A DNA stretch of 21,278 nt from the IMG/VR virus record IMGVR_UViG_3300017779_000203, positions 1-21,278 of that record; one strand, given 5' to 3'. The notes below the pieces were generated by a model. It saw only the letters and a list, made by a program, of their open reading frames with translations, had not been told where the DNA came from and did no database searches. Below are positions 12,419 through 18,790 of the stretch, piece by piece. Positions within the stretch are counted from its first letter, which is position 1. Each line of letters begins with the position of its first letter. The translations under genes were made by a program, and so were the position numbers. This DNA comes from a virus.

Positions 12419-12735
12419 TGAGTGAAGAAAATCAAGAAGTTGAAACTGTAGAACCTACAGTAGTGGAAAACCTAATCAATCAGATCACTGATGGTGATTT
12501 GAATAATGCAGAAGGTTCGTTCCAGAGTCTTATACAAGACAAGATGGCAGATGCACTAGAAGCACAACGCATTGCTACTGCACAGGCAATCTTCAATGAC
12601 CAAGACGATGACATCGAAGAGATTGGAGATGAAGAAGTAGAACTTGATGATGGTGAAGTTGAAGTAACTTCTGAGGAAGAACCCGAAGAAGTTGAAGTAG
12701 TTTCTGAGGAAGAACCCGAAGAAACTGAAATTTAG
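12415..12735 (+). CDS. 67: Prohead core protein gp67-like
   Basis: A 106-residue (105 if the second ATG at 12418 is used) very acidic protein between portal and protease genes, the place of T4 gene 67. The segment at about residues 28-62 (LNNAEGSFQSLIQDKMADAL, then A-RIATAQAIF) matches the short conserved helix of gp67-like prohead core proteins. The C-terminal half is almost entirely Glu, Asp and Val and contains an 11-residue tandem duplication. Gp67 is a core component cleaved by gp21 during maturation in T4. It overlaps the gp20 stop by 4 bp, so coupling is likely. The identification rests on position and the helix motif. Confidence 0.75.
   Translation: MMSEENQEVETVEPTVVENLINQITDGDLNNAEGSFQSLIQDKMADALEAQRIATAQAIFNDQDDDIEEIGDEEVELDDGEVEVTSEEEPEEVEVVSEEEPEETEI
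12658..12723 (+). repeat. 33-bp tandem duplication in the gp67-like gene
   Basis: 12658-12690 and 12691-12723 are adjacent 33-bp copies that differ at only two bases (ACT versus GTT codon). They encode VEV[TV]SEEEPEE twice and extend the acidic tail in frame. The near identity points to a recent slippage or unequal recombination event. Confidence 0.9.
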
Positions 12736-14727: not shown

Positions 14728-16041
14728 ATGCAATCTTACGATAGTTTAATCGAAAAGTGGGCACCAGTACTAGATGAAGAGTCAGCAGGAAAAATCTCTG
14801 ACAATCACAGACGTTCTGTAACTGCCGCTATCTTGGAGAACCAAGAAAAAGCAATCATGGAGCAGAACGCTGCTTCTCATGGTTTTATGACCGAAAACAA
14901 CGCTGCTCCTGCTAACGCAACTGGTTCAGTAAACAACTTTGACCCTGTTCTTATCTCTTTGGTAAGACGAGCAATGCCTAACCTAATCGCATACGATGTA
15001 TGTGGTGTACAACCTATGAACGGCCCAACTGGTCTCATCTTTGCGATGAAATCACGTTATCAAGGTGGTTCTACTTCTAACCGTGAAGCACTGTTCAACG
15101 AAGCAGAGACTCGTTTCTCTGGTGACAGTTCTGGTACTCACGATTCTGACAATGCTTCTGGTTTCAACGGCATTGATTCAGAAGGTGCTCGTTTAACTTC
15201 ACTTGCCGCTGGTGGTATGCCTACTGCTGATGCCGAAGCACTTGGTCGTACTGGTGGTTCTGCGTTCAACGAAATGGGTTTCACCATTGAACGACAGACT
15301 GTTACTGCTAAGTCTCGTGCATTGAAAGCAGAGTACACTCTTGAACTTGCTCAAGACTTGAAAGCAATCCACGGTTTGGATGCTGAAACTGAGTTGGCAA
15401 ACATTTTGTCTGCTGAGATTCTTGCTGAAATCAACCGTGAAGTTATCCGTACTATCAACAGTCAAGCAAAGACTGGTGCACAACAGGCAAATGTTACCTC
15501 TAACGGTATCTTCAATATGTCTAGTGACACTGATGGTCGTTGGTCTGCTGAGAAGTTCAAAGGTCTTGGTGTACAGATTGACCGTGAATGTAATGTGATT
15601 GCCAAAGAAACTCGCCGTGGTAAAGGTAATGTAATCATCTGTTCATCAGATGTTGCTACTGCTCTTGCCGCTGCCGGTACTTTGGACTATAGTCCTGCTA
15701 TCAGCAACAACCTACAGGTTGATGACACTGGTAACACTTTCGCAGGTCTTCTGAATGGTCGTATCCGTGTATACATCGATCCATATGCCAACACTGACTA
15801 TGTAACTGTTGGTTATAAGGGTCAGAACCCATATGACAGTGGTGTATTCTACTGCCCATATGTACCATTACAGATGGTTAAAGCAGTTGGTGAAGATGAC
15901 TTCCAACCACGCATCGGGTTTAAAACTCGTTACGGAATGGCATCAAACCCATTTGTTGGTTCTACACCTTCTGACGGTCTTGCTACTGCTAAGACTAACC
16001 AGTACTACCGTATCTTCAAGGTGACTAACATCTTGACATAA
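14728..16041 (+). CDS. 23: Major capsid protein gp23 precursor
   Basis: A 437-residue HK97-fold capsid protein (T4 gp23: 521 aa). After the N-terminal propeptide come the highly conserved LVRRAMPNLIAYDVCGVQPM (about 79-98) and NGPTGLIFAMKSRY segments, and later GLDAETELANILSAEILAEI, FAGLLNGRIRVYIDP and FKTRYGMASNPF. The expected gp21 cleavage falls at about E56 in FMTE-N. TAAGGA lies upstream of the ATG. The gene ends in the first 64-bp repeat region with a strong UUCG terminator. No gene 24 paralog follows, as in other marine T4-like phages. Confidence 0.98.
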   Translation: MQSYDSLIEKWAPVLDEESAGKISDNHRRSVTAAILENQEKAIMEQNAASHGFMTENNAAPANATGSVNNFDPVLISLVRRAMPNLIAYDVCGVQPMNGPTGLIFAMKSRYQGGSTSNREALFNEAETRFSGDSSGTHDSDNASGFNGIDSEGARLTSLAAGGMPTADAEALGRTGGSAFNEMGFTIERQTVTAKSRALKAEYTLELAQDLKAIHGLDAETELANILSAEILAEINREVIRTINSQAKTGAQQANVTSNGIFNMSSDTDGRWSAEKFKGLGVQIDRECNVIAKETRRGKGNVIICSSDVATALAAAGTLDYSPAISNNLQVDDTGNTFAGLLNGRIRVYIDPYANTDYVTVGYKGQNPYDSGVFYCPYVPLQMVKAVGEDDFQPRIGFKTRYGMASNPFVGSTPSDGLATAKTNQYYRIFKVTNILT

Positions 16042-16053
16042 GTCGGTATAAAA

Positions 16054-16117
16054 AATAGAGTGGGGGAGTATATCTAACTCACCAATTTTAAAGGGGTCTT
16101 TCGAGACCCCTTTTTTT
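16054..16117 (+). repeat. 64-bp perfect direct repeat, left copy
   Basis: This stretch is identical base for base to 16419-16482 (offset 365 bp). It begins AATAGAGTGGGGGAG and ends in the T-run of a terminator hairpin. It lies 12 bp after the gp23 stop codon. Together the two copies bracket the lipoprotein cassette. Confidence 0.97.
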
Positions 16118-16118
16118 T
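16090..16118 (+). terminator. Rho-independent terminator after gene 23
   Basis: GGGGTCT (16093-16099) and AGACCCC (16104-16110) form a 7-bp stem with a TTCG loop, extended by AAA/TTT to 10 bp and followed by eight T residues. This is a textbook intrinsic terminator and closes the capsid operon. Confidence 0.95.
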
Positions 16119-16122
16119 GTCT

Positions 16123-16130
16123 TATAAATA
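16123..16130 (+). promoter_or_regulatory. Late promoter box TATAAATA for the lipoprotein gene
   Basis: An exact TATAAATA within CTTATAAATA, the same context as the proximal gp18 box. It lies just after the gp23 terminator and 86 bp before the lipoprotein ATG, so the small gene has its own late transcription unit. Confidence 0.8.
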
Positions 16131-16134
16131 AGTG

Positions 16135-16176
16135 TGTTCACGAACTGAACATAGAAGTATGAGACGGTATTACCGT
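16135..16176 (+). promoter_or_regulatory. Structured leader of the lipoprotein gene
   Basis: Two small inverted repeats occupy the roughly 80-nt leader: TGTTCA (16135-16140) with TGAACA (16146-16151), and ACGGT (16164-16168) with ACCGT (16172-16176). Neither is followed by a T-run. Box-to-start distance and hairpin content resemble the gene 18 leader. A function in mRNA stability or start control is inference. Confidence 0.35.
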
Positions 16177-16216
16177 GGTGTCTGGTCATCCAGTAATCTA
16201 GAAACAGGAGAGTATT

Positions 16217-16423
16217 ATGCGTTTTATTGCAATTGCATTCGCATTAGTTCTATCTGCTTGTTCAACTATCGATGCAACTATCGATGGTACTGGTGGTGTT
16301 ATTAAAGGTGTCGGTTCTGATGTCTTTGGTGTGACCGCAGGTGTGTTGGATGTAACATCAAATTTAATTAAAGATGTTGCAGAAAAGACTGGCACAGATG
16401 CAACATCACCAGAAGGGGAATAG
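16217..16423 (+). CDS. Small phage lipoprotein
   Basis: A 68-residue protein with a lipoprotein signal: MRF, a hydrophobic stretch (residues 4-12) and the lipobox LSAC with the lipidated Cys at residue 15. The mature part is about 54 residues, rich in Gly, Val, Thr and Asp, with no Trp or other recognised domain. Ser after the Cys would favour the outer membrane under the enteric Lol rule. CAGGAG lies about 10 bases before the ATG. Expression is late, from its own box. Known phage lipoproteins of this size include superinfection-exclusion proteins such as T5 Llp, and entericidin-like proteins are also similar in size; either role here is a guess. The stop codon lies within the right 64-bp repeat. 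Confidence 0.8.
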   Translation: MRFIAIAFALVLSACSTIDATIDGTGGVIKGVGSDVFGVTAGVLDVTSNLIKDVAEKTGTDATSPEGE

Positions 16424-16482
16424 AGTGGGGGAGTATATCTAACTCACCAATTTTAAAGGGGTCTTTCGAGACCCCTTTTTTT
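16419..16482 (+). repeat. 64-bp perfect direct repeat, right copy
   Basis: Identical to 16054-16117. It begins in the last codon of the lipoprotein gene, supplies its TAG stop and its terminator, and ends at the stop codon of the convergent methyltransferase gene. Confidence 0.97.
16455..16482 (+). terminator. Rho-independent terminator after the lipoprotein gene
   Basis: The same hairpin as at 16090, with a GGGGTCT/AGACCCC stem, a TTCG loop and a run of seven T. It stands between convergent genes. On the opposite strand the stem is followed by TTTAAAA, so it may also stop the methyltransferase transcript, less efficiently. Confidence 0.92.
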
Positions 16483-17815
16483 ATCCGAAGAACTCGTCTA
16501 GACTATTCTTTTCTGCTCTCGCAAATATATCGGGAGTGTTCTCTTTACCAAAGTACCAACAATTCTCGATATAGAGTTGATCGAAGTAACTCTGTAACTG
16601 TTCCTTGTCGAAGTTGCCATCCTCATCCTTGAACACAGATTTCCCTTGGGGTCTCTGCATAATACGCATACCTATCTGACCCTTGAAGTGTGGTCGAAGT
16701 AGGTCTACCAACTCACAACAGGATGGATAGACTTTGTTCTTGACCTTGGGGTTCATAATGTTGATGATCATGTGTCCTTGATCTGATAACGAGTCAAAGG
16801 TCTTTTGAGATACTGGGAGAAAGAAGTCATCCCTCCATCTCTCATATTCTCCAAACTTCTTCCATGACTGATTATCTTCATTCTCACCACCTTCATTATA
16901 TCTCTCGGTAGCAAAATATGGGGGTGATGTAAAGGCACAATCAATGTCATTGATCTCATCCCAAGGCAAGTCCTCGGCACCACAGTTGTACATCTTGACA
17001 ATCTTCTTCTTACCAGACATCTTTTCTAGGTAGGGTATCATCTCTTTGTATATTGCAAAGGTGTTTGGGTTAGGGTCACAACCGATATATTCTTCTGCAT
17101 CTGATGCATAGAACCCTGTTAGTCGATCACCCCAACCCATCGAAGTATCAAGTACTCGTTTGGCATTAGTCATCTGGTAGATGGTCTTTGCCATAGATGG
17201 TTTAAACTGGGTAGCAATATAGGTGGCAAGACGAAAGGTAGAAACATACGAGTTTTGTTGCAAGGAACCACCGACTAACTTCTCTTTCTCATTTCCCTCT
17301 AGATCACGGACAACGACTTTCTTGACATCATTGATCCCTCTCCACATGGCACCAAGACACGCCCATATCTCGTGGGCAGTTCCCTCATTCCATACAGTAA
17401 GAGGTGCCTTGAATGAATAACTATTACACTGCCATCTGAGAGGTTTCATAAACCAATCGGACACATCATTATAGGGTCTGGCAGGAGCATCAATTACACC
17501 CAATCCCCATTTACTATAGGGGTACTTGTAATCGTCATACTTCTCAATGATCTCTCTATCTTGGTTATCTTGGTGGGTAACACCCTTCCATATATCATAC
17601 TTCTTGAGTTTCCACCATGCATCATCCCTCCGTTTCTCGGTAACTTGATTGGCAGGGAAGGGAGGTCTCTCACGGAAGATATATTCGGCAAGAGTCAGTC
17701 TAAACTCTTCTTTTCCGTACTTCTCGGTAACATCAGTAAACTGGGTCTCATCCATCTTGGGTAGACCAGTACTGTCGGCACATTTGCCTAGAAGATCATA
17801 TAATTCTTGATTCAT
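16481..17815 (-). CDS. SAM-dependent DNA methyltransferase-like protein
   Basis: This 444-residue protein is the only clear gene on the - strand. The C-terminal half has SAM-methyltransferase motifs: motif I VLDTSMGWGDRL (221-232), an acidic residue after strand 2 in IGCDPNP (D247), GAEDLP (279-284) and the catalytic-type TSPPYF (296-301). TSPPY is typical of amino-methylating (N4-cytosine or N6-adenine) enzymes, but here motif I precedes it, unlike the usual order of beta-class enzymes with TSPPY. The N-terminal 215 residues have no recognised domain and may hold target recognition. GAGGA lies 9 bases before the ATG, and a TTGACA-17-TATGAT promoter lies upstream. DNA is the likely substrate; RNA cannot be excluded. 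No cognate restriction enzyme is adjacent, so self-protection or host-regulation roles are inferred. Confidence 0.8.
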   Translation of the reverse strand: MNQELYDLLGKCADSTGLPKMDETQFTDVTEKYGKEEFRLTLAEYIFRERPPFPANQVTEKRRDDAWWKLKKYDIWKGVTHQDNQDREIIEKYDDYKYPYSKWGLGVIDAPARPYNDVSDWFMKPLRWQCNSYSFKAPLTVWNEGTAHEIWACLGAMWRGINDVKKVVVRDLEGNEKEKLVGGSLQQNSYVSTFRLATYIATQFKPSMAKTIYQMTNAKRVLDTSMGWGDRLTGFYASDAEEYIGCDPNPNTFAIYKEMIPYLEKMSGKKKIVKMYNCGAEDLPWDEINDIDCAFTSPPYFATERYNEGGENEDNQSWKKFGEYERWRDDFFLPVSQKTFDSLSDQGHMIINIMNPKVKNKVYPSCCELVDLLRPHFKGQIGMRIMQRPQGKSVFKDEDGNFDKEQLQSYFDQLYIENCWYFGKENTPDIFARAEKNSLDEFFG

Positions 17816-17905: not shown

Positions 17906-17934
17906 TTGACAAACCCTGTTCCATGTTGTATAAT
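17906..17934 (+). promoter_or_regulatory. Consensus sigma70 promoter of the small-gene operon (P1)
   Basis: TTGACA (17906-17911), a 17-bp spacer and TATAAT (17929-17934) match the bacterial consensus exactly. An AT-rich UP-like stretch precedes it. It should be used early by unmodified host RNA polymerase. The following leader to the ATG at 17970 is nearly identical to that of P2 at 18502. Confidence 0.92.
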
Positions 17935-17969
17935 ACTTGTATTGAGAATGAGAACTGAGAGAGTAAATT
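17935..17969 (+). promoter_or_regulatory. Conserved early leader, copy 1
   Basis: The leader reads ACTTGTATTGAGAATGAGAA followed by CTGAGAGAG and an AT-rich end. It contains three TGAGA units in close succession and no canonical AGGAGG site. Copy 2 (18531-18565) differs at only two positions. Conservation beyond the promoter suggests a shared translational or RNA-protein signal. Confidence 0.6.
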
Positions 17970-18302
17970 ATGACTAGATTTGATAAAGAAGAGTTCACTT
18001 GGGATGGTATGTACTTGATGTACCGTGGTAAACACACCGAGTCTGTGAATATGGAGGTCGCAAGTCCTAACTGTCACCCATCTTGGGTTGGTTTGCCCAA
18101 ACCAGAGTTCATTGCCCGATTCAAGTATGGTTACAAACCATATAAGGCATGGATCAACTTCCTTGTCAAGAATGCTACTGTTGAGCAGTATCTTGAACTG
18201 TCTGACCATCAAAACAAGTTTTACAGTGAGAAGTACGGTTACGAGGTTAGTGGTTCTCCTGCCTATGCAATGGAAGCACTAGGTTACAAGGGTAAGAAAT
18301 AA
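17970..18302 (+). CDS. Hypothetical protein, first gene of the early-type operon
   Basis: A 110-residue soluble protein rich in Tyr, Trp and Lys. Aromatic segments include FTWDGMYLMYRGKH (about 9-22) and FKYGYKPYKAWINFLVKNAT (51-70). No signal peptide, membrane segment or recognised domain is visible. It has a strong upstream consensus promoter, so it is probably made early. The stop overlaps the next ATG in a TAATG junction, indicating coupling with the 62-aa protein. I do not recognise the family; by position and promoter it is a candidate for host take-over functions. Confidence 0.75.
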   Translation: MTRFDKEEFTWDGMYLMYRGKHTESVNMEVASPNCHPSWVGLPKPEFIARFKYGYKPYKAWINFLVKNATVEQYLELSDHQNKFYSEKYGYEVSGSPAYAMEALGYKGKK

Positions 18303-18501: not shown

Positions 18502-18530
18502 TAGACAAAAGATGTTCTATGTTGTATAAT
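18502..18530 (+). promoter_or_regulatory. Second early-type promoter of the small-gene operon (P2)
   Basis: TAGACA (18502-18507), a 17-bp spacer and TATAAT (18525-18530). The spacer end and everything from the -10 to the next ATG repeat P1 almost exactly, while the -35 has one change from consensus, so P2 may be slightly weaker. Confidence 0.85.
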
Positions 18531-18565
18531 ACTTGTATTGAGAATGAGAACTGAGAGTGTGAATT
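18531..18565 (+). promoter_or_regulatory. Conserved early leader, copy 2
   Basis: Same leader as at 17935-17969 with the three TGAGA units; the differences are near the 3' end (GTGTG in place of GAGTA). It precedes the ATG at 18566. Confidence 0.6.
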
Positions 18566-18790
18566 ATGATTATTTTTGAAAGAGATTTTGTCCGACTTGC
18601 CGAAGATTCCAGTTGGCAACAAGTAGTTGAGATTGTATTCCGTGATGAATACCCTACTGAGAGATTAGTGTTGGCAGATAACCGTGTGGTCTCTGCGACT
18701 TGGAAAGATATTGATGAGGTTCGTTCTGAAAACGAACACTACGAAGAGATTCAAAACGAACTGCGTGAGCAGGATGAGAGGCAATTATGA
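18566..18790 (+). CDS. Small acidic hypothetical protein
   Basis: A 74-residue protein starting MIIFERDFVRLAEDSSWQQV. The N-terminal two thirds suggest a small alpha/beta fold (VEIVFRDEYPTERLVLADNR, VVSATWKDIDEVRSEN). The C-terminus is a charged helix rich in Glu, Gln and Arg. No known domain is recognised. It is the first gene after promoter P2 and its TGA overlaps the next ATG as ATGA, so it is coupled to the 125-aa gene. Confidence 0.72.
   Translation: MIIFERDFVRLAEDSSWQQVVEIVFRDEYPTERLVLADNRVVSATWKDIDEVRSENEHYEEIQNELREQDERQL

Follow-up and report, generated by a model that had tools for sequence, protein, structure and literature searches.

A moron is an independent transcription unit lying between conserved phage genes. 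The term is in use (PMC6469090). In T4-like phages, gene shuffling is mediated by a composite element, the promoter-early stem-loop (PeSL), as described in the passage of PMC4503421 that cites Arbiol et al. 2010 and Comeau et al. 2014. Small lipoproteins acting in superinfection exclusion are also described in phages, such as Cor and the Ltp of TP-J34 (PMC3952083). The locus analysed here lies in a stretch of 21,278 nucleotides (IMG/VR record IMGVR_UViG_3300017779_000203, hereafter the window) and shares properties with all of these. As in the PeSLs described in that passage, a stem-loop and a promoter form a composite that borders the exchanged genes of T4-like phages and is found at their joints; unlike in them, the promoter is late and not early, and a single cargo gene is carried together with a leader of its own. 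An early promoter of the sigma-70 type joined to the stem-loop was not found, the promoter being TATAAATA. Like a moron, it is an extra gene with its own predicted promoter between conserved genes, which is present in some relatives and absent from others; it differs in its predicted promoter, which is of the late type whereas morons are expressed from a repressed prophage, and in that the terminator on its left is that of the resident gene. Because the promoter is late, we do not class it among the PeSLs, yet it appears to work like a PeSL and like a moron. We read it, with a probability of about 0.72, as a mobile late-gene cassette of ~0.3 kb, composed of a late promoter, a gene-specific leader RNA and a lipoprotein ORF, that is exchanged among T4-like marine phages. 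Set beside morons and PeSL cassettes, the closest known systems, it is a late-promoter variant with two alternative gene-specific leaders.

Features of the locus and of the lipoprotein family

A repeat search of the window found two direct copies of 64 nt that are 100% identical and spaced by 365 bp, as an earlier note on this DNA had claimed, and the contents which that note had assigned to the unit (late box, leader, ribosome site, lipoprotein and terminator) were all found between or in the copies (Table 1). The note had also proposed a search for the 64-mer elsewhere in the same genome; it occurs twice in the record, which comprises only 21,278 bases, and these are the two known copies. 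The terminator part of the repeat has no third match in the window with up to 3 mismatches allowed, and shuffled sequences gave 0 matches. The region of the left copy folds with a z-score of -3.6. One sigma-70-like match was found on the plus strand, at 16033-16061 on the 5' side of the terminator, a number within chance. No Rfam family was matched by the repeats or by the leaders.

Table 1. Coordinates of the lipoprotein cassette and its neighbours in the window
Feature	Position	Strand	Evidence
gp23, T4-type major capsid protein	14728-16041	+	Pfam PF07068, E=7.9e-147; PHROG 138
Left repeat copy: first hairpin and gp23 intrinsic terminator	16054-16117	+	Repeat search, folding
First hairpin of the left copy	about 16060-16083
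Terminator hairpin of the left copy, followed by T-run	16090-16113
T4-type late promoter TATAAATA, predicted	16123-16130	+	Consensus late box by motif search
Type a leader RNA	16131-16216	+	Match to model R2, E=2e-13
AGGAG (ribosome site), within the leader stretch	16206-16210
68-aa lipoprotein ORF, MRFIAIAFALVLSAC (ending with the lipobox cysteine) followed by STIDATIDGTGG...	16217-16423	+	ORF and lipobox LSA/C
Right repeat copy: lipoprotein stop and second gp23 terminator copy	16419-16482	+	Repeat search, folding
Lipoprotein stop codon, inside the right copy	16421-16423
Terminator hairpin of the right copy	16455-16478
Convergent methyltransferase-like gene, stop codon overlapping the T-run of the right copy	16481-17815	-	PF01555, E=2.8e-5, just under the Pfam cut-off

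A scan of viral contigs gave at least 111 stretches encoding the lipoprotein, of which 80 were kept, and a second scan with the alignment as query gave 128. Where the flanks are readable the gene follows gp23. The exception is a single phage type, represented by L106, L108, L110, L111 and L260, in which it follows a gene that we take to be gp32, judging by the kind of protein and by its position in phages of the T4 type. Large records that have the lipoprotein gene carry a single copy of it, and the core of the protein is nearly invariant. No convincing relative was found among the isolated phages of INPHARED or in PDB, Pfam and NCBIfam, nor in GTDB genomes, where two peptide patterns only were used and distant relatives could be missed. 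The protein resembles Cor and Ltp in being a small phage lipoprotein; it differs in that its only family match is a weak one to Cor (E=0.039), which covers residues 3-31 and falls to about one half in the signal peptide. Homology over the mature protein, as in a Cor-type exclusion lipoprotein, was not found, the match stopping at residue 31, and an AlphaFold2 model (mean pLDDT 54) was of no use. Given the lipobox, the small size and the late promoter, our tentative guess is that it might be placed in the outer membrane late in infection and change the surface of the infected cell, for example in superinfection exclusion; a part in lysis is the main alternative and ranks second. The family to which it belongs is widespread and highly constrained, has dedicated leaders, and is absent from those annotated phage records and family libraries that were searched.

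Empty and filled sites and the left joint

Relatives without the lipoprotein exist behind gp23 (L003 and L006), where the earlier note had proposed to look for versions with one repeat and no lipoprotein, and behind gp32 (L261 and L262, in which gp32 is followed by a terminator and the convergent gene); the gp23 site is also empty in the record of L110. The filled gp32 site of L260 has the same flanks as the two empty ones (gp32 DNA 98% identical, downstream gene 92-93%; against L262 alone, gp32 DNA 98.4%, upstream 97% and downstream gene 93%). Its insert begins exactly past the T-run of the resident terminator and ends a single base short of the stop codon of the convergent gene, a clean insertion in which no terminator is duplicated, and four assemblies have contigs with the filled form. 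The filled and empty forms are also unlike in the sequence that precedes the terminator hairpin, and for this reason the left joint of this pair may lie further left than the T-run.

Phages that are nearly identical may have unlike cassettes or lack one altogether. Behind gp23, L155 shares 97.9 and 98.8% of its gp23 DNA with L124 and L134, respectively, and an identical terminator with both, and homology stops at TATAAATA; the same pattern is seen between L147 and L148 (gp23 DNA 93%), which differ from the late promoter onward. The left joints of exchanged cassettes are mostly between the terminator and the late box. These comparisons show that the left joint is at or near the boundary between the terminator of the resident gene (gp23, and gp32 in one case) and the late promoter, with a resolution of terminator-to-promoter at the finest because the terminators resemble one another, which is also part of the reason why alignments extend into the terminator. 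The natural pair of empty and filled sites, together with the near-isogenic swaps, fixes where a phage cargo gene joins a new genome, and through them terminator-guided gene exchange becomes testable.

Right ends and the repeated terminators

The right ends were surveyed in 50 distinct cassettes at the gp23 site, of which 47 are readable and 3 run into contig ends. The GCCAAGGATGGC type is the most frequent (28), followed by GGGGAC..GTCCCC (14) and others (3), while a gp23-type terminator stands on both sides at 2 of the 47 readable sites, those of the window and L083. The right joint is thus usually not at a terminator, and the 64-bp perfect repeats are a rare, lineage-specific by-product and not a general means of movement. 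This bears on the proposal of the earlier note that the unit docks by terminator homology and that the flanking terminator copies are docking and excision sites, between which recombination inserts or removes the gene. In the window lineage the gene is indeed flanked on each side by 64 bp of perfect homology, and left joints do fall at terminators, which sustains the terminator as the place of docking on the left; as a docking device, the flanking repeats are not supported, being found at those two of the readable sites and absent from the gp32 insertion. Moreover, no excised, single-copy form occurs among the contigs carrying the first hairpin of the repeat, all of which have both copies (L083, whose second copy is diverged, being counted among them). 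We therefore regard docking and excision through paired copies as improbable.

The perfect identity of the two copies can be compared with L083, whose gp23 is 96% identical to that of the window and which has both terminator copies. The right and left copies of L083 differ at 4 positions, and the window copies have 1 difference from the right copy of L083 and 4 from the left. Since the upstream copy of the window fits the downstream copy of L083 better, this comparison of two lineages with few differences points to an older duplication that later underwent gene conversion. The earlier note had offered either recent duplication or ongoing conversion, and conversion is the better explanation of the two, the L083 copies having already diverged. 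A plain recent duplication of the terminator, unrelated to mobility, would fit copies that are perfectly identical; however, the mutually diverged copies in L083 make the duplication probably older than the split, and movement of the cassette is seen in relatives that have no repeat, which leaves this explanation with little likelihood.

Under the reading of a mobile cassette, its left end would pair with the resident terminator by homology during phage recombination, and its right end would be joined by short or no homology. In the ancestor of the window and L083, the joining of the right end might have taken place ahead of a gp23-type terminator, through the short match AGAGT that occurs both at the end of the lipoprotein gene (GAATAGAGT) and in the trailer of gp23 (AATAAGAGT), so that a terminator would have remained on both sides. 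In the window lineage the copies would later have been made identical by gene conversion, probably of right over left.

Exchange between phages with diverged gp23

All data are metagenome contigs. In 35 pairs, which are not mutually independent, the lipoprotein genes have a pS below 0.15 despite a gp23 pS above 0.5; between L116 and L155, for example, the values are 0.00 and 0.66. In pairwise profiles, identity is high in a block that begins at about -110, in the terminator/promoter region, and extends as far as the stop codon of the lipoprotein gene, dropping outside. The limits were located in 17 discordant pairs. In 10 of them the left limit precedes the late promoter by 23-38 nt and so falls in the terminator, in 5 it precedes the promoter by 60-75 nt, and in 2 it is within the leader; the right limits are mostly near the stop codon. 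On the gp23 tree, cassette presence requires at least 10 changes, of which starred branches force 6; leader type likewise requires 10. In addition, the junction CCTTTTTTTATNYGTATAAATA occurs once each in 5 of 15 records. Every one of these carries the cassette, and the junction stands behind gp23 as well as behind gp32. Near-identical cassettes in phages discordant in gp23 bear out the exchange of the unit between phages, its gain or loss having been claimed in the earlier note. One contig, L105, has the sequence of L116 to the left and that of L110 to the right, and changes from one to the other within the cassette sequence that they share; it is probably an assembly chimera of the two (or else a real recombinant) and was dropped as evidence, although it is still included in 4 of the 35 pairs, 3 of the 17 pairs and the tree.

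Vertical inheritance with repeated loss, in which the lipoproteins would be alike only through strong constraint, accords with the 38 invariant columns of the alignment and with the clustering of cassette presence on the gp23 tree, where the counts cannot separate gain from loss. It is already contradicted by the synonymous-site data, as synonymous sites and leader are near-identical where the synonymous sites of gp23 are widely diverged, and the same cassette is also found behind gp32; we consider it very unlikely. An assembly artefact, named in the earlier note as a possible refutation, might be suspected from the chimeras that shared cassettes seem to produce, but it is the least probable explanation by far, because three further assemblies (L163-L165) show the repeat pair, again 365 bp apart.

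Leader RNAs and other repeats

The same lipoprotein gene is preceded by two unlike leaders, a and b. Covariance models of both matched only on the 5' side of the lipoprotein gene, at most once per record, and gave no match in searched records lacking the lipoprotein; type a is found only before this gene in the searched records. Leader b has one hairpin in which three pairs are changed on both sides, which supports a structure with this first hairpin only; a proposed second helix was rejected, with 63% of cells paired and one pair never formed. Leader a shows little covariation, its helices being without two-sided change, and single leader folds were not clearly more stable than shuffles. A wider generalization, that terminator plus late promoter is a general cargo docking site in marine T4-like phages and that each of the two leaders stands for a new class of regulatory RNA serving one lipoprotein alone, is speculative and seems to us rather unlikely as a whole.

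A single lipoprotein gene is preceded by a tandem of the two leader types in L018, and likewise in L087, L089, L091 and L092, an arrangement that looks as though a cassette had docked behind what was left of an earlier one. Elsewhere in the window, a 33-bp tandem repeat (94% identical, 12655-12720) lies in a small acidic ORF following gp20. An 82-bp direct repeat (87% identical, 17908-17989 and 18504-18585) contains an early-type promoter and a leader before two small ORFs and looks like a repeated early promoter cassette; a portion of it is also present on the 3' side of the lipoprotein gene in L004, L083 and L146-L148.
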